Assembly (NCBI GenBank): GCA_963205235.1
Contig: CAUJIP010000029.1
Span: forward strand, 62,001 to 126,000
Reading direction: 5' to 3'
Length of the DNA: 64,000 nt
Source: Pseudomonadota bacterium
GTDB lineage: Bacteria > Pseudomonadota > Alphaproteobacteria > Rhodobacterales > Rhodobacteraceae
A program made the translations under genes and the position numbers. The notes below the pieces were generated by a model. That model was not told where the DNA came from, did not search any database, and saw only the letters and a program-made list of their open reading frames with translations. Shown here piece after piece: positions 17,735-45,434 of this stretch (position 1 is the stretch's first letter; each line of letters opens with the position of its first letter).

Positions 17735-17790
17735 GCCCTGACGGGCGTCATCGCTGGACCAGCGAATAGGCCCGTCAGGGCTGATGAGCG
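17735..17790. repeat. REP-like palindromic repeat, family B copy 2
   Basis: The outer arms GCCCTGACGGGC and GCCCGTCAGGGC (ending near 17781) are perfect complements, with an inner hairpin TCGCTGG-A-CCAGCGA. It fills the gap between the convergent SDR and PLP genes and extends into the last codons of the PLP gene, including its stop. This is the most symmetrical of the three copies and probably serves as a two-way terminator. Confidence 0.8.
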
Positions 17791-18893
17791 GCAGCCAGTG
17801 CCGCGGCAATCGCCTGCCACAGGACCTCGACCGGTTCGACCCCGACCGACAGGCGAATGAAGCCCTCGGCCACCCCGTCCCCCCAGCGCGCGCGACGTTC
17901 CCCGGCGGAGTGGGTGCCGCCGAAGCTGGTGGATTGCTCGATCAGTGGGCAGCGGGCAAGGAAGGCTTCGGCGGCCCCGGCGTCGGCCAATTCGAACCCG
18001 ATCAGGAAGCCCCCATTCGCCATCTGACCGCCGACAACCCGATGCGAGTGGTCGCCAGGCAGGCCGGGGTAACGCAGGTTCCGGACGGCAGGATGCGCGG
18101 CGAGACGGTCGGCAATCGTCGCCGCCGAGGCGCACATCCGGTCCAGTCGAACTTCCAACGTTTCAAGGCCGCGATGGACGAGGAAGGCCTCGAACGGCCC
18201 GGCAATCGACCCCGACATCCGCCGCCAGTCGCGGACTCGGGTCATCAGGGCGGCATCCCGGCCCGAGACGTGGCCGAAAAGCACGTCGGAATGGCCAGCC
18301 GGGGCCTTGGTATCGGCGGCGACCACCAGATCGGCCCCCAGATCCAGCGGGCGCTGCAAAAGCGGGGTCATCGTGGTGTTGTCGGCGATCACCCTTGCCC
18401 CCGCCAGATGGGCGCGCGTGGCGACGGAGTTGATATCCACCACATCAAGGCCGGGGTTCGACGGCGTCTCCAGATAGACAACCGCGACGCCGGTGAAATC
18501 GGCGGTCTCGTAATCGCGGGTCGGGATCTGGGTGACCGTCACCCCGAGAGGTTTCAGAAAACCGTCCGACAGGACGCGGGTCACATAATAGCCGTCCGAG
18601 GGGATGATCAGCCGGTCCCCCGCTTTCAGCGTCGCGAAAAGAGCGGCGGCGATGGCGGCCATGCCGGAGGGGAAGCTTGCCGTCTCGGCGTCTTCAAGGA
18701 TCGAAAGCTGGGCTTCGACGGCGTCCCAGCTGGGGTTGCCGTTCCGGCCGTAGAATTGCCCGCCCGACTGGACCGAGGGCAGGTGAAAAGTTGCCGAGGC
18801 GGTGATCGGGGGGATGATCGGGTCACCCTGAGAAAGGCCCGCCTTCCGGTGGTGAAGAAGGCGGGCAATCCTGGCGTCGGTTTCGGCGGGCAT
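17775..18893 (-). CDS. Cys/Met metabolism PLP enzyme (cystathionine gamma-synthase/lyase family)
   Basis: A fold-type I PLP enzyme of 372 aa. The cofactor lysine is Lys196 in AADTKAPAGHSD. Other family marks are the QFYGRNGNPSWDAVE segment (about residues 46-60, corresponding to Y-x-R-x-x-NPT), SFPSGMAAI (73-81), YLETPSNPGLDVVD, and IEQSTSFGG near the end. Lyase, synthase and sulfhydrylase members cannot be separated safely by eye. The ATG at 18893 has an AGGGAG upstream. Two palindromes lie in its leader and may be operators. Confidence 0.85.
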   Translation of the reverse strand: MPAETDARIARLLHHRKAGLSQGDPIIPPITASATFHLPSVQSGGQFYGRNGNPSWDAVEAQLSILEDAETASFPSGMAAIAAALFATLKAGDRLIIPSDGYYVTRVLSDGFLKPLGVTVTQIPTRDYETADFTGVAVVYLETPSNPGLDVVDINSVATRAHLAGARVIADNTTMTPLLQRPLDLGADLVVAADTKAPAGHSDVLFGHVSGRDAALMTRVRDWRRMSGSIAGPFEAFLVHRGLETLEVRLDRMCASAATIADRLAAHPAVRNLRYPGLPGDHSHRVVGGQMANGGFLIGFELADAGAAEAFLARCPLIEQSTSFGGTHSAGERRARWGDGVAEGFIRLSVGVEPVEVLWQAIAAALAAAHQP

Positions 18894-18910
18894 GGGCGGC
18901 TCCCTGAAGG

Positions 18911-18966
18911 TGTCCACGGTGGACAAAATCCATTCCACAAACCAAATCAACAAGTTGGTTGTGGAC
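18911..18966. promoter_or_regulatory. Paired palindromes upstream of the PLP enzyme gene
   Basis: TGTCCACGGTGGACA (18911-18925) is a perfect odd-centred palindrome. It is followed by a longer inverted repeat CCACAAACCAA (18935-18945) / TTGGTTGTGG (18955-18964) with one bulge. Both lie in the leader of the minus-strand gene that starts at 18893. They are operator-like, but the regulator is not known. Confidence 0.5.
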
Positions 18967-19020: not shown

Positions 19021-19920
19021 TCATTCCAGCCTTGCCGGGAAACCCGGCGCGCGCAGGTCGGTCGACAGAAGGTCTTCCAGAAGCTTGGCGATCATCGGCG
19101 ACTGCGCCTCGCCGCCATAGGCGGCCTTGGCGGCGATGTAGGTCTGGTTGGTCATCGAGGCCAGATCCAGCGGCACGCCGAATTCCTTGCCGAAGCCAAG
19201 CGCAAAGCCAAGGTCCTTGAGCGCAAGGTCGATGTTGAAGGCGATGTCGTAAGACCCGTTCAGGATCAGCGCGCCTTCGGTTTCATGCACGAAACTGTTG
19301 CCGGACGAGGCGGCAATGGCAGCATGGGCCTGTGCAAGGTCAAGGCCCCCGCGTTTGGCAAGCATCAGCGCCTCGGAGGTGGCTTTCAGGTGGATGAAGG
19401 CCAGCATGTTGGTGATGACCTTGATGATCGAGGACGAACCCAAAGGCCCCATGTGGAAAATGCGGTTCCCCATCGCCTGCATCGCCTTGTAATGCAGGTC
19501 GTAAAGGTCCTTGTCGCCCCCGGCGAGCATGGTGATTTCACCGCGATAGGCCAGATGGACGCCGCCAGTCACCGGGAGTTCCATCATCCGCACGCCAGCC
19601 TCGGCCGCGACGGCGCCAAGCTTCAGCACCTCATCCCGGCCAAGGGTCGACATTTCAACCCAGCTTGCGCCCTTTTTCATACGGGGCAGGATGTTCCGCA
19701 GCACCCGTTCGGATACTGCCGGGGATGGCAGGCAGGTGATGACGTGATCAACGCTGGCGGCCAGGTCTTCGGCGCTGGCGGCAAGCGTCGCGCCTTTGGC
19801 GATAAGCGGATCGGCCAGTTTCGCGTTCAGGTCAAAGACGGTGACCTTGAAGCCGTCGTTCAGCAAACAGCCCGCGCATGCGGCCCCGAGGTTACCCAGG
19901 CCGATATATCCGTAATGCAT
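19021..19920 (-). CDS. Beta-hydroxyacid dehydrogenase (3-hydroxyisobutyrate dehydrogenase family)
   Basis: A two-domain NAD(P)-dependent reductase/dehydrogenase of 299 aa. The Rossmann motif GLGNLG is at 7-12, the substrate-binding loop PVTGGVHLA is near 116-124, and the family catalytic Lys is Lys167 in GSSSIIKVITNM. Relatives act on 3-hydroxyisobutyrate, tartronate semialdehyde or succinic semialdehyde. It is the last gene of a five-gene minus-strand operon, 48 bp after the aldehyde dehydrogenase, and probably handles an aldehyde or hydroxy acid left after amine demethylation; this is inferred from context. Confidence 0.87.
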   Translation of the reverse strand: MHYGYIGLGNLGAACAGCLLNDGFKVTVFDLNAKLADPLIAKGATLAASAEDLAASVDHVITCLPSPAVSERVLRNILPRMKKGASWVEMSTLGRDEVLKLGAVAAEAGVRMMELPVTGGVHLAYRGEITMLAGGDKDLYDLHYKAMQAMGNRIFHMGPLGSSSIIKVITNMLAFIHLKATSEALMLAKRGGLDLAQAHAAIAASSGNSFVHETEGALILNGSYDIAFNIDLALKDLGFALGFGKEFGVPLDLASMTNQTYIAAKAAYGGEAQSPMIAKLLEDLLSTDLRAPGFPARLE

Positions 19921-19968
19921 GATGTCCCCGTTGGGTGGTGGGGCGGGCCAAAACCCGCCCCGGTTGGA

Positions 19969-21399
19969 TTATTCGCCGTAGCCGACGATGCCTTTGACTT
20001 CGCAGAAGTCATGGATGCCCCAATCGGCATATTCCCGACCGTTGCCCGATTGCTTGTAGCCGCCGAAGGGGGCGGAAGTGTCCCAATCGGGGTAGTTCAG
20101 GTTCACCGTCCCGGCGCGCAGTCGGCGGGCGACGGGTTTGGCATCCTCGACCGGGCCAGCGATATAGGCGGCAAGGCCATAGATCGTGTCATTGCCCTGG
20201 GCGATGGCATCCTCGATCGAGTCATAGGGCTGGATCGCCAGCACCGGCCCGAAGATTTCTTCCTTCGAGATGGTCATCGAATTGTTCACGTCACCAAAGA
20301 CGGTCGGGCGCACGAACCAGCCACGGTTGAGGTCTGCGGGGCGGCCAACGCCGCCGGTGACAAGGGTCGCGCCTTCGTCGATCCCGGCCTGGATCAGCTT
20401 CTGCACCTTGTCGAACTGCATCTTCGACACCAGAGGGCCCATGCCGGTTGCTTCGTCGCGCGGATCGCCGACCTTGATAGCGTCAGCCACTTCCTTGGCA
20501 ACCTTCAGCGCCTCGGCTTGCTGCGAGCGGTGGACAAGCATCCGGGTCGGCGCGTCGCAGGACTGCCCGGTGTTCGACATGACGGCGGTCACGCCTGCGG
20601 CCACGGCTTCGGCGATGTTGGCGGTCGGCAGGATGATGTTCGGCGACTTGCCCCCCATTTCCTGCGCCACGCGCTTGGCGGTCGCGGCGGCGACGGCAGC
20701 GATCTGCGTCCCGGCACGGGTCGAGCCGGTGAAGGAGACCATATCGACTTCGGGGTGGGTGGACATGCGGGCGCCGACTTCCGGGCCAGCACCATGGACA
20801 AGGTTGAAGACCCCGGCAGGAACGCCGGCATCATGGCAGACCTGCGCGAAAAGCGTGCCCGACAGGGGGGCGATTTCCGACGGCTTCAGCACCATGGTGC
20901 AGCCCGCGACCAGCGCCGGGGCGACCTTGCAGGCGATCTGGTTCATCGGCCAGTTCCACGGCGTGATCAGCGAGCAGACGCCGATCCCTTCATAGATGAT
21001 CCGGGTCGAACCGCGGTTGTATTCCCAGACCATTTCTTCGGCGGCCTTGATCGTGGCCTCGATATGGACCTGACCGGCCCAGGCCTGCGCGCCGCGCGCC
21101 CAGGTGATCGGGGCACCCATTTCGGTTGACATCACTTGCGCGAATTCTTCGTAGCGCTCGTTGTAAACCTCAAGCACGCGCTTCACGACGGCGATGCGTT
21201 CCTTGACCGGGCGGTAGGTCCAGCCATCAAAAGCGGCGCGGGCGGCGAGAATCGCACGGTCGGCGTCCTCGGCATTGCCCATGGCGACTTCGCAGACGAT
21301 CTCTTCGGTCGCGGGGTTTTCGACCCCCATACGGGCCTTGGAAATGGGATCGACCCACTGCCCATTGATGTAGAATTTCAGCATGTTGGCGGGGATCAT
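19969..21399 (-). CDS. Aldehyde dehydrogenase (NAD(P)-dependent)
   Basis: An aldehyde dehydrogenase superfamily enzyme of 476 aa. The nucleophile is Cys281 in GQSCDAPTR and the general base is Glu247 in QEMGGKSP. The oxyanion Asn is in TPWNWP (about 149), and the cofactor motif FTGSTRAG is at 223-230. The ATG at 21399 has GAGG 8 nt upstream; a longer frame to 21516 has no support. It follows the MttB-like gene by only 7 bp, so the two are tightly coupled. The substrate is probably an aldehyde from a demethylated amine or its carbon skeleton. Betaine aldehyde dehydrogenase activity is possible but not demonstrable from sequence. Confidence 0.92.
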   Translation of the reverse strand: MIPANMLKFYINGQWVDPISKARMGVENPATEEIVCEVAMGNAEDADRAILAARAAFDGWTYRPVKERIAVVKRVLEVYNERYEEFAQVMSTEMGAPITWARGAQAWAGQVHIEATIKAAEEMVWEYNRGSTRIIYEGIGVCSLITPWNWPMNQIACKVAPALVAGCTMVLKPSEIAPLSGTLFAQVCHDAGVPAGVFNLVHGAGPEVGARMSTHPEVDMVSFTGSTRAGTQIAAVAAATAKRVAQEMGGKSPNIILPTANIAEAVAAGVTAVMSNTGQSCDAPTRMLVHRSQQAEALKVAKEVADAIKVGDPRDEATGMGPLVSKMQFDKVQKLIQAGIDEGATLVTGGVGRPADLNRGWFVRPTVFGDVNNSMTISKEEIFGPVLAIQPYDSIEDAIAQGNDTIYGLAAYIAGPVEDAKPVARRLRAGTVNLNYPDWDTSAPFGGYKQSGNGREYADWGIHDFCEVKGIVGYGE

Positions 21400-21406
21400 T
21401 GCGACC

Positions 21407-22969
21407 TCACTTGAAGTAGATGTTAAAGCGCGCACGAATGGCGCGATCGATCTCGGGATCGACGCGGCACCCTGCTTTCGACAGGATATCGTTCTTCCGG
21501 GCAATCGCCGTGTCAAGCAGCAACGGTTTGCCAGCCTCGTTCCATTCCTTGGGCGACATGCGGTTGCCGACCTTGGGGTAGATGTATTCGGTCTGCATCA
21601 GTTTCAGCGTCTGGTCGCTGCCCAGGTAATGGCCGGGGCCGCCAAGGCAGACATCCTTCATCGCGTCGATCGAGGTGCTGTCGGGGGTGACGTCAATGCC
21701 GCGCACAAGGCGCATGGTCTGGCCCAGAAGGTCGTCGCCAAGGACAAGGGATTCAAGGCAGAAGCCAAGGAGGGAGGCGTGCATCCCAACCGCCTCATAG
21801 CACATGTTCAGGCCCGCCAGACCGGCGAGGGAGTTGGTGATCCCCTGCTCCCATCCGGCCTGCATGTCGGGGAGTTTGCTGTCACTGATCCCCGAGGCCG
21901 CCCCGCCGGGCAGGTTGTAGAACCGGTGCATCTGGGCGCAGCCTGCGGTCAGAAGCGCCTGTTCCGCGCTGCCCCCGGACATCGCCCCGGTGCGCAGGTC
22001 GCTGACGAAAGGCCAGGTGCCAAAGATCGCCGGAGCGCCGGGTTTGATCGCGTTGACATAGACCACACCGGCCAGGCATTCCGCCACCGCCTGCACGATG
22101 GTCAGGGCGATGGGCGCGGGTGCAGTGGCCCCGGCCTGACCTGCCGACAACAGCAGCATCGGCATGCCGCGACGGATGCAATCCTCCATCGTGATGCAGG
22201 ATTCTTCAGCGAATTTCATCGGCGGGACGACGAAGCAGTTGGAATTGCTGACGAAAGGCCGTTCCAGCCATTTCTCCTCACCGCCCGCAACCATGTAGAG
22301 CATGTCGAAACAGTCGGCGACGTGGGAGGGGTCGGAGAAGCTGGTACCGACGTGTTTCGTGGTTCCGGCCAGACACCCGTAAAGGGTGTTGAGGTCCATC
22401 TCCTTGTTGTCGACCACATCGCGGCAGACCATCGTGCGCTGGTAGAAATGGATGTTGTCCAGGTTGTCGACCAGACGCGCCGCGTCATACAGGTCCTGCG
22501 CCTTGGATTCGCGGTACTCCAGCGTGATCGGGTCGACGATATGCACGGCGGCCCCGGCGGTGCCGTAGTGGACGTTGGTGCCGGACAAGAGCAGGTCCTG
22601 CTTCGGGTCACGGGCGTAAAGAGTGATATCGCGGGCGGCGATGTTCAGCATGTCCTCGACTAGGGCGCGCGGAAACCGGATGCGGCCGTCATCGCCCAGA
22701 ATGGCACCAGCCTCGGTCAGGATCTTGACGCCCGAGGGCGGGGCTTGGCTAAGCCCGATCTGTTCCAGCGCGTCCAGTGCGGCGGCGTGGATCTGCTGCA
22801 CCCCAGCCTCGGTCAGGGGCTTGTACTGGCCACCGGGCATGCCCGGACGGACGGGGCGCACATCGTCGGCCAGAGGGGCCGCGCGCAATGCCACGCGGGC
22901 CTGACGCCCACCGGACCGCCGCGCGCGGGCGGGTTCGCAAATCTCTCCGATTTCGGGGATATCATTCAT
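21407..22969 (-). CDS. Trimethylamine methyltransferase (MttB) superfamily protein, non-pyrrolysine
   Basis: A 520-aa member of the MttB/COG5598 family. It has the TIM-barrel pattern typical of the group, including GVKILTEAGAILGDDGRIRFP (about 69-89), VHYGTAGAAVHIVDP, GTSFSDPSHVADCFDML and SMEDCIRRG-like ITMEDCIRRGMP. The reading frame is open with no in-frame TAG, so it is not a pyrrolysine enzyme. Non-Pyl relatives (MtgB, MtpB, MtcB) demethylate glycine betaine, proline betaine or carnitine onto a corrinoid protein. No corrinoid-binding protein is encoded nearby, so the methyl acceptor here is unclear. It is the third gene of the operon. Confidence 0.88.
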   Translation of the reverse strand: MNDIPEIGEICEPARARRSGGRQARVALRAAPLADDVRPVRPGMPGGQYKPLTEAGVQQIHAAALDALEQIGLSQAPPSGVKILTEAGAILGDDGRIRFPRALVEDMLNIAARDITLYARDPKQDLLLSGTNVHYGTAGAAVHIVDPITLEYRESKAQDLYDAARLVDNLDNIHFYQRTMVCRDVVDNKEMDLNTLYGCLAGTTKHVGTSFSDPSHVADCFDMLYMVAGGEEKWLERPFVSNSNCFVVPPMKFAEESCITMEDCIRRGMPMLLLSAGQAGATAPAPIALTIVQAVAECLAGVVYVNAIKPGAPAIFGTWPFVSDLRTGAMSGGSAEQALLTAGCAQMHRFYNLPGGAASGISDSKLPDMQAGWEQGITNSLAGLAGLNMCYEAVGMHASLLGFCLESLVLGDDLLGQTMRLVRGIDVTPDSTSIDAMKDVCLGGPGHYLGSDQTLKLMQTEYIYPKVGNRMSPKEWNEAGKPLLLDTAIARKNDILSKAGCRVDPEIDRAIRARFNIYFK

Positions 22970-22975
22970 CGCTGT

Positions 22976-23028
22976 TCCGCTTTCCTCTTGGTCCAAATAC
23001 TTGATCTTCCGCCAGTATCCGGCGGGAC
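22976..23028. repeat. Family A intergenic repeat, copy 3 (with Shine-Dalgarno-like end)
   Basis: Read on the minus strand, it is a short hairpin CCGCC/GGCGG (23009-23013, 23021-23025), then AAGTATTTGG and CCAAGAGGAA, ending 14 bases or so before the MttB-like start. The AAGAGGAA tail also occurs before the genes at 25485 and 56631. Confidence 0.6.
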
Positions 23029-23037
23029 GTGTTTCGT

Positions 23038-25485
23038 TCAGGCCCTGATCCGTTCGGATTTCGGGTCATACATCGGCACAAGGCTGGCGACGGCCGCATG
23101 GCGTTTGCCTGCCACTTCGATCTCGTAGGTCGAGCCCAGGATATCGTCATCGCTTTGCCCCTTGGCCGGAACATAGCCCATGCCGATCGAGCCACCAAGG
23201 AAATGCCCATAGCTGCCCGAAGTGACAGGCCCGACGATCTTGCCGTCGCGGACGATGGCTTCGTTATGGAACAAAAGCGGTTCCGGGTCGGTCAGGCGGA
23301 ACTGTACCATCTTGCGGTCCAGACCTGCCGCTTCCTTGCGCAGCACCGCCTCGCGGCCAAGGAAGGATGGCTTCTTGCGGCTGACGGTAAAGCCAAGACC
23401 CGCTTCCAGCACATGATCCTCGTCCGTGATGTCATGGCCCCAGTGGCGATAGGCCTTTTCGATCCGGCAACTGTCCAGCGTGTGCAGCCCGCACAGCTTG
23501 AGCCCAAGGTCGGCACCGGCCTCTTCAAGTGTCTCGAAGACATGGGCGGTCTGGTCTGCGCTGACGTAAAGCTCCCAGCCAAGTTCGCCGACATAGGTCA
23601 CGCGATGGGCGCGGGCCAGACCCATGCCGATCTCGATTTCCCGCATGGTGCCAAAGGGATGGGCGGCATTGCTGAAATCATTGGGCGAGACGCGGGCCAT
23701 CAGGTCACGCGACTTTGGCCCCATGATACACAGCACCGATTCCGCCGCCGTCACATCGGTGATGACCGCGAAATCGTCGCCGACATGGGCGCGCAGCCAA
23801 GCCAGGTTACGCTGGAACGTGGCACCAGGAACAACGGCCAGATAGGCGGTATCGGACAGGCGGGTGACCGTAAGGTCAGCCTCGATCCCGCCGTGATCAT
23901 TCAGGAACATCGTATAGACGATCTTGCCCGGTTCCACATCCATCTGCGCCGAGCAGACCCGGTTCAGGAAGGCACAGGCGTCGCGGCCTTCGATCCGGAT
24001 CTTGCCGAAGCTGGTCATGTCGAAAAAGCCGACGCCGGTCCGCACGGCCATATGTTCGGCGGCGCGGTTGTCGAACCAGTTCTGCCGCTTCCAGGTGTAA
24101 TTGTATTCGCGTTCCTGGCCTTCGTTGGCAAACCAGTTCGCGCGTTCCCAGCCTGCGACTTCGCCAAAGACCGCGCCGCGCGCTTTCAGGTGTTCGTGCA
24201 GGGGCGTGCGGCGTACCCCGCGCGCGGTTGCGACCTGACGATAGGGGAAGTGATCGGCGTAAAGCAGACCCAGCGTTTCGGTGACCCGTTCCTTCAGATA
24301 GCGGCGGTTCTTCTGGAAGGGCTGGGCGCGGCGGATATCCACCTCCCACAGGTCAAAGGGCGGCGCGCCTTCGGTGATCCAATGCGCCAGCGCCTGCCCT
24401 GCGCCGCCCGACGACACGATCCCGACCGAGTTGTAGCCGGCGGCGATCCAGTAGCCTTTCACCTCGGGCGCCTCGCCAAGGTAATAGCGGTCGTCGGGGG
24501 TAAAGCTTTCGGGGCCGTTGAAGAAAGTATGAATGCCGGCGGATTCGAAAAGCGGCATCCGGTTGGTGGCCATTTCAAGGATGGGCATGAAGTGATCCCA
24601 ATCCTCGGGCAGGGTGTCGAATTCGAAATCCTTGCGGATGCCGTGCATGCCCCATGGCTTGGCCTTCGGCTCGAAGGCACCCAGCATCATCTTTCCGGCG
24701 TCCTGCTTGTAATAGGCGCATTCGTCGGGAACGCGCAGCACAGGAAGGTTCAGATCAATCCCGGCGACGGGTTCGGTGATCAGGTAGAAGTGCTCGCAAG
24801 CATGCAGCGGCAGTGTGACGCCGTTCTGCGCCGCAAGGTCGCGACCCCACATGCCACCGCAATTGACGATCACGTCAGCCTGAATATGGCCGGGACCTTC
24901 GTCAGTTTCATAGTCCACCCCGGTCACGCGGCCATCGGCGGTGGTGATCCTGGTGACCAGCGTGTTTTCAAAGATCTTCGCACCCTTCATCCGGGCACCC
25001 TTTGCCAGCGCCATCGCGATGTTGGCAGGGTCGCACTGGCCATCCAGCGGCAGGGCAACGGCCCCGACGACGCCGTCGATGTTCAGGTGGGGATATTTCG
25101 CCTTGGCTTCCTGCGGCGAGATTTCGTGCACCTCGACGTCAAATATCCGGGCGACGGTGGCCTGCCGCAGCAGTTCTTCATGCCGCTCGCGGGTCAGCGC
25201 GACCGAGATGCTGCCGACTTGCTTCATGCCGGTGGCGACACCAGTTTCGGCCTCAAGCCCACGATAAAGATCGGCGGAATACTTGGCGAGCCGGGTCATG
25301 TTGGCCGACCCGCGCAACTGGCCGATCAGGCCCGCCGCATGCCATGTCGTGCCCGAGGTCAGCTTGCGGCGTTCCAGCAGGACAACATCGGTCCACCCCG
25401 CCTTGGCCAGGTGATAGGCCACCGAACAGCCCGAGACGCCGCCCCCGATGACTACTGCGCGCGCTTTGGTGGGGATATCAGCCAT
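23038..25485 (-). CDS. FAD-dependent dimethylglycine/sarcosine dehydrogenase-like protein with GcvT domain (1)
   Basis: A protein of 815 aa in two parts. The N-terminal FAD domain has VVIGGGVSGCSVAYHLAKAG (11-30) and His49 in TSGTTWHAAG, the position that binds FAD covalently in rat dimethylglycine dehydrogenase. The C-terminal half (from about residue 430) is a GcvT-like folate-binding domain (FFDMTSFGKIRIEGRDA, VTYVGELGWELYV, SCRIEKAYRHWGHDI). The family oxidises an N-methyl group and can pass formaldehyde-level carbon to tetrahydrofolate. It is about as long as the next gene's product and shares its organisation, so it may remove a different methyl of the same substrate. Confidence 0.9.
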   Translation of the reverse strand: MADIPTKARAVVIGGGVSGCSVAYHLAKAGWTDVVLLERRKLTSGTTWHAAGLIGQLRGSANMTRLAKYSADLYRGLEAETGVATGMKQVGSISVALTRERHEELLRQATVARIFDVEVHEISPQEAKAKYPHLNIDGVVGAVALPLDGQCDPANIAMALAKGARMKGAKIFENTLVTRITTADGRVTGVDYETDEGPGHIQADVIVNCGGMWGRDLAAQNGVTLPLHACEHFYLITEPVAGIDLNLPVLRVPDECAYYKQDAGKMMLGAFEPKAKPWGMHGIRKDFEFDTLPEDWDHFMPILEMATNRMPLFESAGIHTFFNGPESFTPDDRYYLGEAPEVKGYWIAAGYNSVGIVSSGGAGQALAHWITEGAPPFDLWEVDIRRAQPFQKNRRYLKERVTETLGLLYADHFPYRQVATARGVRRTPLHEHLKARGAVFGEVAGWERANWFANEGQEREYNYTWKRQNWFDNRAAEHMAVRTGVGFFDMTSFGKIRIEGRDACAFLNRVCSAQMDVEPGKIVYTMFLNDHGGIEADLTVTRLSDTAYLAVVPGATFQRNLAWLRAHVGDDFAVITDVTAAESVLCIMGPKSRDLMARVSPNDFSNAAHPFGTMREIEIGMGLARAHRVTYVGELGWELYVSADQTAHVFETLEEAGADLGLKLCGLHTLDSCRIEKAYRHWGHDITDEDHVLEAGLGFTVSRKKPSFLGREAVLRKEAAGLDRKMVQFRLTDPEPLLFHNEAIVRDGKIVGPVTSGSYGHFLGGSIGMGYVPAKGQSDDDILGSTYEIEVAGKRHAAVASLVPMYDPKSERIRA

Positions 25486-25488
25486 TCT

Positions 25489-25545
25489 GGTGTTCCTCTT
25501 GGCAAAAATACTCCGGGGGTCCGGGGGCTGGCCCCCGGCGCTCCG
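25489..25545. repeat. Family A intergenic hairpin repeat, copy 4
   Basis: Hairpin CCGGGGGC (25521-25528), loop TG, GCCCCCGG (25531-25538). Read on the minus strand it is followed by GGAGTATTTTTGCCAAGAGG and AA, which places an AAGAGGAA ribosome-binding site 7 nt before the ATG at 25485. Confidence 0.75.
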
Positions 25546-25549
25546 TCCG

Positions 25550-27991
25550 TCACGCGCGGATGCGCTCGTTCTTCGCGTCCCACAGGGGTTCGTCGGCCTT
25601 GACGGTCGCGGGATAGCGTTTGCCGAAGATTTCGACCTCGACCGCCTGCCCAGCGACGTTCAGCTCGGTCTTCAGCATGCCAAGCCCGATGCAGGCGTTG
25701 ACACGGTGACCCCAATAGCCCGAGGTCAGTTCGCCCACGACTTTGCCGTCATGCCAGATCGTCGCCATATAGGGCGGATCGTGGGTGTCGGCCTCGATCA
25801 CCAGCGTTGCAAAACGCTTGGTCACGCCGCGCTGCTTTTCAGCCTCCAACGCCGCCTTGCCGCGGAAGTCGGGCTTGGCCCAATCGACGAACCGGTCAAG
25901 CCCGCCTTGCAGCACGGTGTAGTCGGTCGACAGGTCGCCCTTCCAGGTCCGATAGCCCTTTTCGACGCGCAGCGCGTTCAGCGCGAACATGCCGAAAGGT
26001 TTCAGCCCCATCGGCTTGCCCGCCGCCATCACCGCATCCCAGACGGCGGCGGTGTCGGCCAGTTTCGTGTGCATCTCCCAGCCCAGTTCCCCGGCGAAAG
26101 AGACGCGCATCAGCCGCACCTCGCGCCCGGCGATATCGGCGGTCTGATGGGTCAGCCAGCCTTTGGTCAGGTCGGCGTCTGTGCCCGCAGCCGCCAGCAC
26201 GTCACGCGCTTTCGGGCCGGTCAGGATCTGACAGGACCAATCGGCGCTTTCGTCGGTCAGGGACAGGCCGGGGGCTAGGTGGCGTTCCAGCCAGCCCTTG
26301 TCATGCAGTTGCGCGGTGGCGGCGGTGATCAGAAGGATGTCATCCTCGCCCAACCGCGCTACCGACATTTCGGTGACGATCCGGCCCTTGTCATCGGCGA
26401 AATAGGCCAGCCCCAGACGGCCGATCGACGGCAGCTTGCCGGTGATCTGCTTAAGCAGCCAATCGGCGGCCCCTGCCCCGGTCAGGTGGAAGCGGGAAAA
26501 GCCCGGCAGGTCAAGGATGCCGCAGGCGTCGCGGACGGCCTCACACTCGGCCTTCACCGCGGCGAACCAGGGGCCCTCGCGACGCCACGTCCGCTGCGCC
26601 TGTTCTTCGGTATTGTCGCCGGGGCGCGCATACCAGAGCGCGCGCTCATAGCCGTTGTAGGGGCCATATTCCGCGCCCAGCGCGGCCGTCCGGTCATGCA
26701 CGGCCGACAGGCGCTTCATCCGGCCATCGGGCCAGGCGTGGTGCGGGAAATGCATGGCATATTCGTTGCCATAAACCTCCAGCCCCTTTTTCACGCAGTA
26801 GTCGTGATCCTCCCAGCCGGTGAACCGGCGCGGGTCGCAAGACCACATGTCCCATTCCGTCGCGCCCTCGGTGATCCATTCGGCCAAGACCTTTCCCGCG
26901 CCCCCTGCCTGACAGATGCCAAAGGTGAAGACGCAAGCCTCGAACGCATTCGGAACGCCCGGCATCGGGCCGATCAGCGGGTTGCCGTCGGGCGTATAGG
27001 GGATGGGCCCGTTGATCACCTTGGTCAGGTTCGCCTTGCCCAGCAGCGGCACGCGCGCCATCGCGTCGTTGATGTGCCATTCCAACCGGTCCAGATCATC
27101 GGGGTAAAGCTGGAAGCTGAAGTCTTCCGGCATCGGGTCATCCGGCGTTGCCCAATGCGCGCGGCAGTTGCCTTCATAGGGGCCCAGGTTGAAGCCCATC
27201 TTTTCCTGACGCAGGTAGTACGAGCTGTCGACGTCGCGCAGCAAGGGCAGCTTGTGGCCAACCTCTTTGGTCCAGCTTTCCAGTTCCGGGATCGTGTCGA
27301 ACAGCATGTATTGATGGCTCATCACCATCATCGGCACGCGGCGGTTGAACAGCTTGCCGACTTCGGCCGCATAGTAGCCACCCGCGTTGACCACATATTC
27401 CGCCCGCACCTCGCCCTTGGGCGTGGAAAGGATCCATTCCGACCCCGTCCAGCGCGCGGCGGTCACCGGGCAAAAGCGTTCAATCCGCGCCCCCATCTGG
27501 CGCGCGCCGGTGGCAAGGGCTTGGGTCAGCTGGGCCGGGTCGATGTCACCGTCATAGGGGTCATAGAGCGCGCCGGTCAGATCGTGCGTTTCGACAAAGG
27601 GATAGCGGGTCTTGATGTCTTCCGGCGACAGGACCTGCAGGTCCATGCCTTGATAGCGACCCATGCCCGCGACCTTCTGGAACTCCATCAACCGTTCTTC
27701 GGTATGGCCAAGCCGGACCGACCCGGTGACGTGGTAGTTCATCGGGTAATTCACCGCCTCGCCCAGGCCGCGGTAAAGTTCCGCGGAATAGCGCTGCATG
27801 TTCATGATCGACCACGAGGACGAAAAGGTCGGAACGTTGCCAGCGGCATGCCAGGTCGATCCGGCGGTCAGTTCGTTCTTTTCCAGAAGCAGGACATCGG
27901 TCCAGCCAGCCTTGGCGAGATGGTAAAGCGAGGACACGCCCACCGCCCCACCGCCGATGATCACCACTTTCGCCGACGCAAATTCCGCCAT
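25550..27991 (-). CDS. FAD-dependent dimethylglycine dehydrogenase-like protein with GcvT domain (2)
   Basis: A protein of 813 aa with the same layout as its downstream neighbour: FAD motif VVIIGGGAVGVSSLYHLAKA (9-28), covalent-FAD-type His48 in TAGSTWHAAG, and a C-terminal GcvT domain with DLPGFSRFHLTGAGAADWLL, MRVSFAGELGWEMHT and LRVEKGYRTWKGDL. The two paralogues differ after the His motif (NVPTFSSSWSIMNMQ here, LIGQLRGSANMTRLA in the other), which suggests different substrates. It is the first gene of the operon and lies divergently from a LysR gene, 177 bp apart. Confidence 0.9.
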   Translation of the reverse strand: MAEFASAKVVIIGGGAVGVSSLYHLAKAGWTDVLLLEKNELTAGSTWHAAGNVPTFSSSWSIMNMQRYSAELYRGLGEAVNYPMNYHVTGSVRLGHTEERLMEFQKVAGMGRYQGMDLQVLSPEDIKTRYPFVETHDLTGALYDPYDGDIDPAQLTQALATGARQMGARIERFCPVTAARWTGSEWILSTPKGEVRAEYVVNAGGYYAAEVGKLFNRRVPMMVMSHQYMLFDTIPELESWTKEVGHKLPLLRDVDSSYYLRQEKMGFNLGPYEGNCRAHWATPDDPMPEDFSFQLYPDDLDRLEWHINDAMARVPLLGKANLTKVINGPIPYTPDGNPLIGPMPGVPNAFEACVFTFGICQAGGAGKVLAEWITEGATEWDMWSCDPRRFTGWEDHDYCVKKGLEVYGNEYAMHFPHHAWPDGRMKRLSAVHDRTAALGAEYGPYNGYERALWYARPGDNTEEQAQRTWRREGPWFAAVKAECEAVRDACGILDLPGFSRFHLTGAGAADWLLKQITGKLPSIGRLGLAYFADDKGRIVTEMSVARLGEDDILLITAATAQLHDKGWLERHLAPGLSLTDESADWSCQILTGPKARDVLAAAGTDADLTKGWLTHQTADIAGREVRLMRVSFAGELGWEMHTKLADTAAVWDAVMAAGKPMGLKPFGMFALNALRVEKGYRTWKGDLSTDYTVLQGGLDRFVDWAKPDFRGKAALEAEKQRGVTKRFATLVIEADTHDPPYMATIWHDGKVVGELTSGYWGHRVNACIGLGMLKTELNVAGQAVEVEIFGKRYPATVKADEPLWDAKNERIRA

Positions 27992-28064
27992 GACCGCCCT
28001 CCCGTTTCGCGCGTCACTATCGGCTTTCGCACCATCGCTTTCAATTCGGCAAGGAACCGGGTAT

Positions 28065-28083
28065 TGATCGACAAACCCGATCA
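28065..28083. promoter_or_regulatory. Candidate LysR operator between the demethylase operon and lysR
   Basis: An inverted repeat TGATC-N9-GATCA lies about 75 bp upstream of the DMGDH-like gene and about 86 bp upstream of the divergent lysR start. Its size and position suit a LysR recognition site, but it is weak (5-bp arms) and only a candidate. Confidence 0.35.
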
Positions 28084-28087
28084 GAGG

Positions 28088-28141
28088 CTTTCATCTGTCC
28101 GCAAATATCCCACGGGGTTCGGGGGTGTGAAACCCCCGGCG
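28088..28141. repeat. Family A intergenic hairpin repeat, copy 5
   Basis: GCAAATATCCC (28101-28111) is followed by stem CGGGGGT (28120-28126), loop GTGAA, ACCCCCG (28132-28138). The loop is identical to those of copies 1 and 7. It lies just before the lysR start, so it is probably in that gene's leader. Confidence 0.75.
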
Positions 28142-28168
28142 ACCCTTTCCGAAAGCGACGCCAAATCC

Positions 28169-29014
28169 ATGCAGATAGAACTTCTCGACACCTTTCTCGA
28201 CCTTGCAGAAACCCGCAGCTATCACCGGACGGCGGAACGGTTGCGGATCACGCAATCGACCGTTTCGGCCAGGGTGGCAGCGCTGGAGCAGGCGGTGGGG
28301 TCGCGGCTCTTTGACCGCTCACGCGCCGGGACAACGCCGACGGCAGAAGGTAAGCGGTTCGAACCCCATGCCCGCACCTTGCGGCATGAATGGAACGAGG
28401 CGCGGCGCAGGATCCAGATCCCGCAAGGCGCGCAGCAGCTTTTGCGGCTGGGAATCCAGAACGATCTGGCGGCGGTCTACCTCGGCGACTGGGTGGCCGA
28501 GTTTCGCGCCGCCCTGCCCGAAACCGCCTTTTACATCGAACCCGACTATTCCAACCAGATGTGCGCCGACCTTCTGACCGGCATTCTGGACTTTGCGGTG
28601 ATGTTTGCGCCAAAGCCACACCCGGACCTGCATTTCGAAAGCGTTGGGGATGTGACGTACCGGATGATCTCGACCGATACCGAGAAACTGGCAGAGGTGC
28701 GGCCCGACCGGTTCGTGTTCGCGCATTTCTCGCCCGCGTTTGAAGAGATGCACCGCCAGATGACGCCGGACCTTGCAGTTGCCCCGGTGTCGGTCGGGCA
28801 GTCGGGGTCGGTCGTGTCGCTTTTGATGGCGATGGGCGGGTCGGGCTATGTGCTGGAAAAGACCGCCGCCGATCTGGTGGCGGGCGGGCGGTTCATGGCG
28901 GTGGCCGATGCGCCCGACCTGCGCCAGCCGGTCTTTGCCGCGATCCATATCCGGCACCGGACCCAAGCCCTGCACCGCAAGCTGACCCAGCTTGTGGCAC
29001 GGCATTTCGGGTAA
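28169..29014 (+). CDS. LysR-family regulator, divergent to the demethylase operon
   Basis: A regulator of 281 aa. The N-terminal helix-turn-helix reads LLDTFLDLAETRSYHRTAER then LRITQSTVSARVAALEQAVG (about 5-44), followed by LFDRSRAGTTPTAEG. The C-terminal part is a two-lobed effector domain (about 90-281). The ATG at 28169 gives the standard LysR N-terminus. As the only regulator gene next to the five-gene operon, it probably responds to the amine substrate or a product; this is inferred. It ends against a REP-like palindrome that separates it from hutC. Confidence 0.88.
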   Translation: MQIELLDTFLDLAETRSYHRTAERLRITQSTVSARVAALEQAVGSRLFDRSRAGTTPTAEGKRFEPHARTLRHEWNEARRRIQIPQGAQQLLRLGIQNDLAAVYLGDWVAEFRAALPETAFYIEPDYSNQMCADLLTGILDFAVMFAPKPHPDLHFESVGDVTYRMISTDTEKLAEVRPDRFVFAHFSPAFEEMHRQMTPDLAVAPVSVGQSGSVVSLLMAMGGSGYVLEKTAADLVAGGRFMAVADAPDLRQPVFAAIHIRHRTQALHRKLTQLVARHFG

Positions 29015-41963: not shown

Positions 41964-42803
41964 TCAGACTGCGCGTTGGTTCAGGAGACGGCGCTGGATC
42001 AGGATGCGGCGCAGGAAGGCCAGCAGGAACAGGCCGGTCAGGATCAAGATGATCGTCGGGCCGGGGGCGCTGTTGAGATGAAAGCTGGCCCAGACCCCTG
42101 CCAGCATGGCGACAAGGCAGACCAGCGTGGCAGTGATCAGCATGGCCCCGAAGCTGCGGGTCAGAAGAAAGGCGATGGCTCCCGGCGCGATCAGCAGGCC
42201 GATGGCCAAGACCAGGCCGACCGAGGACAGGGTGGCGACGATGGTCAGGGCAAGGATGGTAAGAAGGCCATAATGCAAAAGCCGCGTCGGCAGGCCCGAC
42301 ACCTGCGCCTGAGCGGGGTCGAAGGCGTGCAGCATCAGGTCGCGCCATTTCAGCATCAGGATAAGGGTGACCGGCAGCGAAATGGCAGCGGCGGTGATCA
42401 GATCGCCCTGCCCCACCCCCAGCATGTTGCCAAACAGGATGTGGTCAAGGTGGACGTCGGTCGGAAAGGCGGTGTGCAGCACGATCCCCAGCGCGAACAT
42501 GGCGGAAAAGACCACACCCATCACGGTGTCGCGTTTCAGGCGGCTGTTGTCGGCCAGATAGCCGGTCAACAGCGAAGACCCGAGGCCCGCGATGAATGCC
42601 CCAAGAAGAAGCGGCAATCCCGCCATATGCGCCAGCACGATGCCGGGAAGGACGGCATGGCTGACTGCGTCACCCATCAGGGCCCAGCCCTTCAGGACCA
42701 GAAAGCAGGACAAGAGCGCGCAAGGCGGGGCCACGATCAGGGTGATCAGAAAGGCGTTCTGCATGAACGGGAACTGGAAGGGTTGGATCAGCGCCTCGAT
42801 CAT
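41964..42803 (-). CDS. sitD: Manganese/iron ABC transporter permease
   Basis: An integral membrane protein of 279 aa in the ABC-3 permease family, with about eight helices. VLKGWALMGDAVSHAVLPGIVLAHM (about 37-61) and LSSVGLVLAIGLLIAPGAIAFLL are typical. It overlaps the first permease gene by 4 bp. The sit genes run A-B-C-D on the minus strand, and D is last. It is assigned to Mn/Fe rather than Zn by the operon's Mur/Fur-type promoter box. Confidence 0.92.
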   Translation of the reverse strand: MIEALIQPFQFPFMQNAFLITLIVAPPCALLSCFLVLKGWALMGDAVSHAVLPGIVLAHMAGLPLLLGAFIAGLGSSLLTGYLADNSRLKRDTVMGVVFSAMFALGIVLHTAFPTDVHLDHILFGNMLGVGQGDLITAAAISLPVTLILMLKWRDLMLHAFDPAQAQVSGLPTRLLHYGLLTILALTIVATLSSVGLVLAIGLLIAPGAIAFLLTRSFGAMLITATLVCLVAMLAGVWASFHLNSAPGPTIILILTGLFLLAFLRRILIQRRLLNQRAV

Positions 42804-43639
42804 TGCAAGGCCTCGCGGCTGCGGCGGCGGGCGGCAAGCAGCCCATGCTTGGGGGCGAAGACGAAGGCAGCGGCGAAAAGCGTGAACTGCAAAAGCACGA
42901 TCACCCCGCCGGTCGCGCCGTCAAGGAAGAACGAAAGATAGGCCCCGATGCTGCCAGTCGCGGCCCCGATCCCGGCGGAGAGGGTCAGCAGGCGGGGAAA
43001 GCGGTCGGTCAGAAGATAGGCCGTCGCCCCCGGCGTCACCACCATCGCGACGACAAGGAACGCGCCGACGGTCTGCATCGCGGCGACGGTCGAGGCGGAA
43101 AGAAGCGTGAAGAAAATCGCCTTCATCAGGTCGGGACGCAGGCCGATGGTGCGGGCGTGCGCCTCGTCGAAGAAGGTGACCATCAGGTCTTTCCAAAGCG
43201 CCAGCAGCACCGCCGCCGAGATGCCGCCGATCAGCAGAAGTTGCAGCGTATCCTCGGGCGAGATGGTCAGGATATTGCCCATGGTGATCGATTGCGGGCT
43301 GACCGGGGTTGGAAAGATCGAGATCAGGAACAGGCCAAGCCCGAAAAAGCCGGTGAAGATCATCCCGATCACCGTGTCGGTCTTGAGGCCCGAGCGGTTG
43401 GACAAAAACAGCATGGCGGCAGCGGCAAGGCCACCCGACAGAAACGCGCCCAGCGCAAAGGGCAGGCCAAGGATATAGGCCCCGGCCACCCCCGGGACCA
43501 CGGAATGCGAAAGCGCGTCGCCGATCAGCGACCAACCTTTCAGCATCAGGTAGGCCGACAGAAACCCGCAGACCCCGCCGACAAGGGCGGAAACCCACAT
43601 TGCGTTGGTCATGTAAGCGTAGGCGAAGGGCTCAAACAT
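42800..43639 (-). CDS. sitC: Manganese/iron ABC transporter permease
   Basis: The second ABC-3 permease, 279 aa, with LMLKGWSLIGDALSHSVVPGVAGAY (about 32-56) and TVGAFLVVAMVVTPGATAYLLTDR. Two different permease subunits, as in SitCD/MntCD-type systems, form the heterodimer in the inner membrane. It lies 39 bp after the ATPase gene and overlaps sitD by 4 bp. Confidence 0.92.
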   Translation of the reverse strand: MFEPFAYAYMTNAMWVSALVGGVCGFLSAYLMLKGWSLIGDALSHSVVPGVAGAYILGLPFALGAFLSGGLAAAAMLFLSNRSGLKTDTVIGMIFTGFFGLGLFLISIFPTPVSPQSITMGNILTISPEDTLQLLLIGGISAAVLLALWKDLMVTFFDEAHARTIGLRPDLMKAIFFTLLSASTVAAMQTVGAFLVVAMVVTPGATAYLLTDRFPRLLTLSAGIGAATGSIGAYLSFFLDGATGGVIVLLQFTLFAAAFVFAPKHGLLAARRRSREALQ

Positions 43640-43678
43640 GCGTGGCCCCGCGCAGGCTGGGGCGGTTTTCCGAAAACC

Positions 43679-44533
43679 TCATTTGTCGCCCTTCCGGCCG
43701 TATTGGACAAAGGGGCGTTCGTCGTCGGTCAGGATGCTGATTTCGCGGGCATCGTCATCTTCGTGCAGATCGCTGCCGCCGATGGTGAAGTGGCGCAGGA
43801 CGCCGCCAAAGGCGCGTTCAAGGTTCGGGCGGGTAAAGGTCGTCTCGGTCGGGCCATGGGCAAGGACGGTGCCTTTGACCAGCACGGTCCGGTCGCAGAA
43901 ATCGGGGACAGAGCCAAGGTTGTGGGTCGAGACCAGCATCACATGGCCTTCATCCCTCAGAGTGCGCAGAAGCGCGATGATCTGATCCTCGGTCTTCACA
44001 TCAACCCCGGTGAAGGGCTCGTCCAGAAGGATGATCCGGCCCTCTTGTGCCAGCGCACGGGCAAGGAAAACGCGCTTTTTCTGGCCGCCGGAAAGTTCAC
44101 CGATCTGGCGGTGGCGCAGATCCTGAAGGCCGACGCGGGCCAGGGCTTGATCAACCTTGGCGCGGTCGGTGGCAGAGGGGCGGCGCAGAAAGCCCATATG
44201 ACCATAGCGGCCCATCATCACCACATCCTCGACAAGGACGGGGAAGGACCAGTCAACCTCCTCGGCCTGCGGGACATAGGCGACAAGGTTCTGACGAAGT
44301 GCGTCGCGCACGGGCAGGCCCAGAAGGCGGATCGTGCCACGGGCGATGGGGACAAAGCCCATGATCGCCTTGAACAGCGTGGATTTCCCGGCGCCATTCA
44401 CCCCCACCAAACCGGTGATCGTCCCCTGCGGGATGGCGAAACTGGCATCGGTCAGCGCGGTCAGGCCGTTTCGGTAGGTGACGGTCACCCCTTCGGCGAA
44501 GATGCCTTCCGCTGCGGAAGCCGTGTCGCGCAT
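43679..44533 (-). CDS. sitB: Manganese/iron ABC transporter ATP-binding protein
   Basis: The 284-aa ATPase. Walker [11 protein letters not shown]-loop [14 protein letters not shown] (the WSFPV form is typical of Mn/Zn ABC ATPases), signature [15 protein letters not shown], Walker [12 protein letters not shown] and the switch His in VSTHNLG. The ATG at 44533 is chosen because it lies 7 bp after the sitA stop; a longer frame would overlap sitA. The acidic C-terminus ([11 protein letters not shown]) is unusual but short. Confidence 0.93.
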
Positions 44534-44540
44534 GTTGCCC

Positions 44541-45434
44541 TCAGTTCGCCGGAGCAAGGCCCCGGGCAATGGTTTCGGTGGTGACTTTCAAAAGGTCGAG
44601 ATAGGTCGGAACCGGCCCGCCCGCGTCGGACAGGCTGTCGACGTAAAGGATGCCGCCAAAAGCTGCGCCGGTTTCGCGGGCGACCTGTTCGGCGGGGTCC
44701 GACGGGATGGTGCTTTCGCAAAAGACGGCGTGGATATTGTGTTCACGCACCCCGTCGATCACCGCCTGCACTTGCCGTGGCGTGCCTTGCTGGTCGGCAT
44801 TGATCGGCCAGAGGTAAAGCGTGTTCAGGCCAAGGTCGCCTGCCAGATAGGAAAATGCCCCTTCGCAACTGACCAGCCAGCGCTGATCGGCAGGCAGGGC
44901 AGCGATCTTGGCCTTCAGGGGATCAAGTTCGGCCATAAGCTTGGCCTTGTAGGCCGTGGCGTTGGCGGCATAGGTCGCCGCATTGGCCGGGTCCGCCGCC
45001 GAAAGCGCTTTTTCGATGTTGTCGACATAGATCAGCGCGTTCGAAATCGACATCCAGGCATGCGGGTTCGGCTTGCCTTCATAATCGCCGCCGGTGATCG
45101 AGATCGGGGTGATGCCATCGGTCAGCACCACCGAGGGGACATCGCCCATATTGGTCAGGAATTGTTCGAACCAGCGTTCCAGACCCAGGCCGTTCCACAG
45201 GATCAGATCGGCATCCGAAGCGGCGACGATATCGCCGGGGGTGGGTTCATAGCCATGAATCTCGGCCCCCGGCTTGGTGACCGAGACGACCTCGACCCCA
45301 TCGCCCGCGACGTTGCGGGTCATGTCGGCCAGAACGGTGAAGGTGGTGACGACCTTGAACCCGTCTTCGGCCAGAAGCGGGGCCGGAAGAAGGGTTGCGA
45401 AAAGCGACAGCAGCGCAGCGCGGGCCGGGATCAT
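44541..45434 (-). CDS. sitA: Manganese/iron ABC transporter substrate-binding protein
   Basis: A 297-aa periplasmic metal-binding protein of cluster A-I. The signal peptide ([20 protein letters not shown]) is cleaved near residue 22. Metal ligands can be read as His60 (IHGYEPTP), His125 (NPHAWMS), Glu191 (CEGAFSYL) and Asp266 (YVDSLSD), the H-H-E-D set of Mn/Fe binders; no His-rich zinc loop is present. The start ATG has AAGGA upstream. The promoter region carries a Mur/Fur-type box. Confidence 0.94.

Follow-up and report, generated by a model that had tools for sequence, protein, structure and literature searches.

The core of the glycine-betaine route, as given in the available passages of PMC12478193, consists of an MttB-family methyltransferase, MtgC and MtgD, followed by dimethylglycine (DMG) and sarcosine dehydrogenases. 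According to the same passages, MtgC and MtgD are essential for glycine betaine use in Ruegeria pomeroyi, and SPO2108 (MtgB1) and SPO2134 (MtgB2), both PF06253 proteins, are increased in cells grown on N-osmolytes (glycine betaine, choline, carnitine). They also mention that a single genome may hold up to seven PF06253 genes, the substrates being left open. Here, we describe a related locus at positions 19021-29014 of a 64,000-nucleotide stretch (the window) of contig CAUJIP010000029.1 from a Rhodobacteraceae bacterium. It is an operon in which an MttB-family methyltransferase (MttB) stands with two FAD/GcvT proteins (FADB and FADA), an aldehyde dehydrogenase (ALDH) and a 3-hydroxyisobutyrate-dehydrogenase-like beta-hydroxyacid dehydrogenase (HIBADH). 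On balance, we lean towards reading it as the form that this aerobic, cobalamin-dependent route from glycine betaine takes in the Rhodobacter lineage.

The operon is conserved and real. The first-pass annotation had described five minus-strand genes and a divergent LysR gene, and the open reading frames (ORFs), Pfam on five of the six genes (LysR excepted) and NCBIfam bear this out; the six listed genes stand, and a cystathionine gamma-lyase gene next to them had been left out. With the chosen starts, the five minus-strand genes are separated by gaps of 64, 41, 7 and 48 bp. The same neighbourhood was looked for in relatives, in the best 80 of at least 586 loci, a set hence biased to close relatives (Tabrizicola, Rhodobacter, Gemmobacter, Loktanella and other genera), 50 of them with full flanks; presence counts are lower bounds, because the ORF caller overlooked the window's own LysR gene. 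Among the full-flank loci, 46 hold FADB, FADA and MttB, 45 hold these together with HIBADH, 36 have ALDH in addition and 32 have all six genes with a recognised LysR. This argues that the operon is not a chance arrangement, since 45 of 50 loci keep the same four genes. A LysR orthologue is present in at least 45 of the 50 and ALDH in 38, being absent from the other 12. Four loci do not have the two FAD genes together as called (L052, L084, L085 and L087; L, G and C numbers denote our loci, genomes and contigs), and in the last three LysR, MttB and HIBADH alone were seen. Also, cystathionine gamma-lyase occurs in 40 of the 80 loci and an MDR oxidoreductase in or beside the operon in 21; the labels cysS, MFS and molybdoenzyme in relatives' loci were given by eye unless a family test is stated.

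The association of the three demethylase genes extends beyond close relatives. In a survey of 295 genomes of the family, with cut-offs that differ per gene, we found MttB in 166, FADB in 181, FADA in 198 and HIBADH in 36. The demethylase trio is thus common in the family, with all three genes present in 156 genomes, and all three are missing in 87. At least one MttB absence is false, since in L215 (G256) the apparent MttB start lies at the contig edge. Co-occurrence of MttB with FADB is strong (Fisher p 1.1e-44, a statistic that ignores common descent), and it holds even where the genes are not adjacent. In the roseobacter-type loci (n=46), MttB is mostly found without the FAD pair, and in 20 roseobacter genomes inspected FADB and FADA form a cluster of their own, apart from MttB. 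Outside the family, Sinorhizobium meliloti and Shinella have the order LysR, FADB, FADA, MttB, in stretches that gave no match to HIBADH. Moreover, on three Rhizobiaceae plasmids, other than the two with a Rieske gene described below, the FAD pair is accompanied by ETF, ETF-QO, FolD and PurU, as would be expected for folate-linked demethylases. The shared operon and the family-wide co-occurrence support that one MttB-type and two DMG-dehydrogenase-like demethylases belong together. A neighbourhood arisen by chance or by inheritance, with no common pathway, would account for the separation of MttB from FADA and FADB in many roseobacters; nonetheless, the genes co-occur despite this separation, the gaps are short and adjacency is found in Rhodobacteraceae and Rhizobiaceae alike, which makes such a neighbourhood very improbable.

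In three genomes (G274, G030 and G270), the MttB copy carries one in-frame TGA, TAG or TAA, probably reflecting errors or broken genes. A gene annotated as trimethylamine N-oxide reductase lies near FADB and FADA in L193, and genes that by eye resemble dimethyl sulfoxide-reductase-type molybdoenzymes lie near the pair in L144, L212 and L214.

Both FAD proteins have mammalian dimethylglycine dehydrogenase (DMGDH) as best solved match over nearly their full length, with 568 bits for FADB and 452 bits for FADA, and their Pfam domains follow the same order (Table 1). The motif TWHAAG, whose WHAAG part we take to be the flavin-binding His motif, is present in 71 of 71 FADA and 65 of 65 FADB orthologues longer than 760 residues. 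The two proteins are only about 33% identical to each other, and a comparison of 89 FAD/GcvT proteins separates orthologues, 58-93% identical to the window copies, from paralogues at 30-40%. Of the 20 roseobacter loci with a FADB-FADA cluster, 19 have an XRE-cupin regulator, 12 GFA and 11 LysE, and in 13 the two FAD genes flank a homocysteine S-methyltransferase, one member of each family having been tested. The order is often LysE, GFA, FAD, homocysteine methyltransferase, FAD, and it matches the published labels at Ruegeria SPO3402-SPO3396, where SPO3402 is LysE and SPO3398 homocysteine S-methyltransferase (available part of PMC4809877), while SPO3400 is given as dimethylglycine dehydrogenase and SPO3396 as sarcosine dehydrogenase (available part of PMC4744692). 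Because of this fit in gene order, FADB is probably a dimethylglycine dehydrogenase of the SPO3400 type and FADA probably a sarcosine dehydrogenase of the SPO3396 type.

The methyltransferase matches PF06253 far above the cut-off of 25 bits, over positions 1-490 of its 500 residues. Its frame is open, and an Ile aligns with the pyrrolysine position of the solved MttB, so that the description of MttB as a non-pyrrolysine enzyme, with no in-frame amber codon, was correct. The nearest solved proteins are glycine betaine methyltransferase structures (9yce/2qne, 185 bits). In the tree, into which six paralogues from the same genome were entered twice, the window, roseobacter and Rhizobiaceae MttB proteins form one clade with support 100/99. 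The roseobacter homologues, about 65-71% identical to the window protein, have an outer membrane protein (OMP) beta-barrel gene adjacent or one ORF off in 13 of 30 loci (L127-L156), directly adjacent in 9; one member of the OMP family was tested by Pfam. In R. pomeroyi, SPO2133 is likewise an outer membrane protein by label in the accessible part of PMC9938194. SPO2134 follows SPO2133, much as an OMP gene lies at or near MttB in these 13 roseobacter loci, and judged from such neighbouring genes and labels the window enzyme is a probable MtgB2 (SPO2134) type. The available portion of PMC9842639 yielded no glycine-betaine pocket residues for testing MttB. The genome has nine PF06253 genes, and at least two of those outside the window (L122 and L124, among L119-L126) have an adjacent FAD/GcvT gene and a LysR gene.

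The partners required by a cobalamin-dependent route have candidates elsewhere in the genome. On contig C100, a homocysteine-methyltransferase gene (MtgE-like), a B12-binding gene (MtgC-like) and a DUF1638 gene lie close together, with one opposite-strand ORF among them. There is also an MtgD-like pterin-binding gene, whose neighbour gives a weak match to the MetF model (20.6 bits, cut-off 24). C57 encodes a RamA-type protein (RACo_C_ter, 292.8 bits). Going by these matches, the genome encodes a candidate corrinoid protein, a candidate pterin methyltransferase and a candidate reductive activase. An MtgD-like/MetF-like gene pair occurs twice in nearly identical form, each time at the end of a contig (L168 on C115, L169 on C57), through either duplication or assembly redundancy.

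Gene content, conservation, co-occurrence and partner genes are observed; the substrate, the sequence of the reactions and the equivalence to the Ruegeria genes are inferred. The substrate would be a quaternary amine, most likely glycine betaine, from which MttB, as an MtgB2-type enzyme, would transfer the first methyl group to an MtgC-like corrinoid protein encoded elsewhere, and MtgD would pass it on to tetrahydrofolate. Then, FADB as a DMG-dehydrogenase-type and FADA as a sarcosine-dehydrogenase-type enzyme would take off the remaining two as methylene-tetrahydrofolate, so that glycine is left. The stepwise demethylation by MttB and two DMGDH-like enzymes proposed in the first-pass annotation thus fits the operon and the co-occurrence, with glycine betaine now favoured as substrate. 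Its view of the pathway as undescribed found no support, the core being that of the route in the available passages of PMC12478193, which also report that other bacteria have genes for the later demethylations close to mtgBCD. A literature search on this exact gene set, with subscription literature largely outside it, found no paper; the available part of PMC7574528 names other genes, and PMC9007349 nowhere treats betaine, carnitine or choline. Should the substrate be glycine betaine, the operon would unite the B12-dependent betaine route under one regulator in Tabrizicola- and Rhodobacter-type genera, and it offers a clean test of the role of a second MtgB paralogue.

In some plasmids, a different enzyme takes the position of MttB. 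Two Rhizobium-group plasmids carry LysR-FADB-FADA followed by a GbcA-related Rieske oxygenase in its place, near carnitine genes. One of these is a carnitine 3-dehydrogenase, the other a gene of the keto-acid cleavage type, which scores 231.5 of 382 bits in one plasmid and is annotated as such in the other. Genes of these two types turn carnitine into glycine betaine. We count this arrangement in favour of the glycine-betaine reading. In the family survey, 19 of 295 genomes match the GbcA model at E <= 1e-150, always below the curated cut-off, and MttB is present in 6 of these 19 vs 160 of the 276 others (p 0.03), a mild hint that the two are alternative routes. A Rieske gene was looked for in 13 of the 24 family genomes with FADB and no MttB match (L215 among them), and none was recognised in the 13 stretches, 6 of which are shorter than 12 kb. 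On a Leisingera plasmid (L201, 8971-11813), a GbcA-related Rieske gene lies directly beside an MttB gene.

Several observations weigh against glycine betaine as the substrate or against the identities proposed above. Within the genome itself, the window MttB is not the closest homologue of the characterised Desulfitobacterium hafniense MtgB. In a comparison that covered two of the eight other PF06253 genes, the paralogues on C126 (413-416 bits) and C52 (326 bits) are both nearer to the glycine betaine methyltransferase than the window protein is, and a long branch parts the window clade from them. For SPO2134, as for SPO2108, the passages of PMC12478193 contain no knock-out, and the match of the FAD pair to SPO3400 and SPO3396 is one of gene order and published labels, not of sequence letters. 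No betaine transporter was recognised in the 64-kb window by the ORF list and Pfam on ten further proteins. Glycine betaine degradation needs neither HIBADH nor ALDH. As for the Rieske plasmids, the best model of the oxygenase is GbcA with 257 bits (cut-off 670), and other demethylase entries match it too; in Rhizobium CC-CFT758, the FADB match comes in two pieces with no annotated gene, and two Shinella plasmids carry homologues of the Rieske gene that are flanked by neither a FAD pair nor carnitine genes.

The two dehydrogenases are where a different substrate could be argued. HIBADH reaches no NCBIfam cut-off, its best model being L-threonate dehydrogenase (162.9 bits, cut-off 350), and with the 3-hydroxyisobutyrate dehydrogenase model TIGR01692 it scores 150.1 bits, below the cut-off of 291.6; the nearest solved protein is 2-hydroxymethylglutarate dehydrogenase (3cky, 135 bits). 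For ALDH, the best NCBIfam model is BADH (TIGR01804), with 406.7 bits and a cut-off of 668.6. A Lys-Asn motif in 75 of 75 HIBADH orthologues (>280 residues) and a Cys motif in 55 of 55 ALDH orthologues (>440 residues) are conserved; we take both to be functional motifs. Choline oxidation by the operon ALDH was considered and is weak as a proposal, the gene ranking eighth among 17 places in the genome that match the BADH model, with seven scoring higher and none passing the cut-off.

One alternative holds that the trio demethylates a different, longer or hydroxylated betaine (for instance carnitine, butyrobetaine or a betaine-lipid head group), after which HIBADH and ALDH oxidise the skeleton. 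HIBADH is present in 49 of the 50 full-flank loci, and 25 of the 36 genomes that have it show it no more than 5 kb from MttB. The solved protein nearest to it uses a hydroxymethyl acid, the window MttB differs from the MtgB-like paralogue of its genome, and 9 of 80 loci have a GMC choline-dehydrogenase-like gene in the operon or close by. Nonetheless, HIBADH was found in far fewer genomes than the demethylase trio, so that the core can do without it, ALDH is variable, and the FAD pair fits the label order at the Ruegeria DMG/sarcosine dehydrogenase locus. We regard this alternative as possible but unlikely. The longer carbon chain that the first-pass annotation had argued from ALDH and HIBADH is unsupported: oxidation of the skeleton looks lineage-specific, since HIBADH is found in 36 of 295 genomes vs 166-198 for the demethylases (at differing cut-offs) and ALDH is absent from 12 of 50 operons. 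HIBADH and the optional ALDH look like lineage-specific additions to the glycine-betaine core, and their role may be to process an aldehyde or hydroxyacid that arises before or after it.

A more specific and distinctly doubtful proposal is a hydroxylated betaine new to MttB enzymes, for example an algal betaine-lipid head group (trimethyl-homoserine or the DGTA head). The DGTA head is hydroxymethyl-trimethyl-beta-alanine, itself a substituted 3-hydroxyisobutyrate. In this case, MttB, FADB and FADA would strip the methyl groups, and HIBADH and then ALDH would oxidise the hydroxymethyl group; if true, the operon would be a B12-dependent sink for algal lipid nitrogen.

The roseobacter-type loci raise yet another candidate, an amino-acid betaine degraded by MttB, FADA and FADB, with the resulting acid passing to a transaminase, which in many roseobacters is of class I, or, in the window lineage, to HIBADH and ALDH. 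A class I aminotransferase is near MttB in 20 of the 46 roseobacter-type loci and a phosphoenolpyruvate (PEP)-mutase-like gene in 10 (one member of each tested), L152 holds FADB, the aminotransferase, FADA, the PEP-mutase-like gene and MttB in a row, and a PEP-mutase-like gene is in or beside the operon in 12 of the 80 close loci. On the other hand, the window operon has no aminotransferase, and the aminotransferase neighbours include housekeeping-like genes by eye (cysS), so that adjacency may be inherited gene order. This makes an amino-acid betaine improbable. Hercynine (histidine betaine) feeding adjacent hut genes was set aside: hutC is near the operon in 20 of 87 loci, and the core set occurs without it.

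The features of the locus are collected in Table 1. The start listed for MttB is a TTG, with an ATG nine codons further in. The cystathionine gamma-lyase gene follows 67 bp beyond HIBADH on the same strand (listed TTG start), and a plasmid of Leisingera caerulea likewise has a gene of this type near its MttB cluster. Further along the window, at 41964-45434 on the minus strand, Pfam shows an ABC transporter whose binding protein is of the ZnuA type.

Table 1. Genes of the locus, in window coordinates.
Feature	Position	Strand	Basis and remarks
LysR-family regulator	28169..29014	+	Divergent from operon; label from own sequence and annotated LysR orthologues in S. meliloti and Neorhizobium
FADB, FAD/GcvT protein B	25550..27991	-	DAO, FAO_M, GCV_T, GCV_T_C, in this order (Pfam)
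FADA, FAD/GcvT protein A	23038..25485	-	DAO, FAO_M, GCV_T, GCV_T_C, in this order (Pfam)
MttB, non-pyrrolysine MttB-family methyltransferase	21407..22996	-	MTTB PF06253, 362 bits
ALDH, aldehyde dehydrogenase, optional operon member	19969..21399 (chosen start)	-	Aldedh PF00171
HIBADH, 3-hydroxyisobutyrate-dehydrogenase-like beta-hydroxyacid dehydrogenase	19021..19920	-	PF03446 (NAD_binding_2) and PF14833 (NAD_binding_11)
Cystathionine gamma-lyase, possible last gene of same transcript	17775..18953	-	NF005758, 505.6 bits (cut-off 440)

Finally, a comparison with known systems places the operon closest to the Ruegeria route. The D. hafniense MtgB (2qne, 9yce) is, as the window MttB, a non-pyrrolysine PF06253 protein, but the window protein reaches 185 bits against it vs 413-416 for the C126 paralogue. 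Mammalian DMG dehydrogenase and Arthrobacter DMG oxidase (4p9s, 1pj5) resemble both FAD proteins near full length, folate domain included; unlike these, the window encodes two distinct proteins, for which the substrates are candidates. The GbcA-type Rieske glycine betaine monooxygenase is unrelated to MttB, and it is a relative scoring below the GbcA cut-off that fills the MttB place after FADB-FADA on the two Rhizobium-group plasmids. The R. pomeroyi megaplasmid cluster SPO_RS21380-21405 brings together LysR, MttB and two FAD/GcvT genes as in the window, but with a class III aminotransferase and an Xsc-like thiamine pyrophosphate (TPP) enzyme instead of HIBADH and ALDH, and its MttB is 45-47% identical. 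The aminotransferase of this cluster (L160) is glutamate-semialdehyde-aminomutase-like and its TPP enzyme sulfoacetaldehyde-acetyltransferase-like, both below the model cut-off; the cluster is possibly a taurine-betaine-like route. As far as the available parts of PMC12478193 and PMC4744692 describe it, the MtgBCD and SPO3400/SPO3396 system of R. pomeroyi DSS-3 has enzymes of the same kinds, an MttB-family methyltransferase and a pair of DMGDH-like and sarcosine-dehydrogenase-like FAD-GcvT proteins, and it shares with the window's genome the MtgC-, MtgD-, RamA- and DUF1638-like partners. Unlike in that strain, MttB and both FAD genes stand here in one operon with LysR, HIBADH and ALDH.

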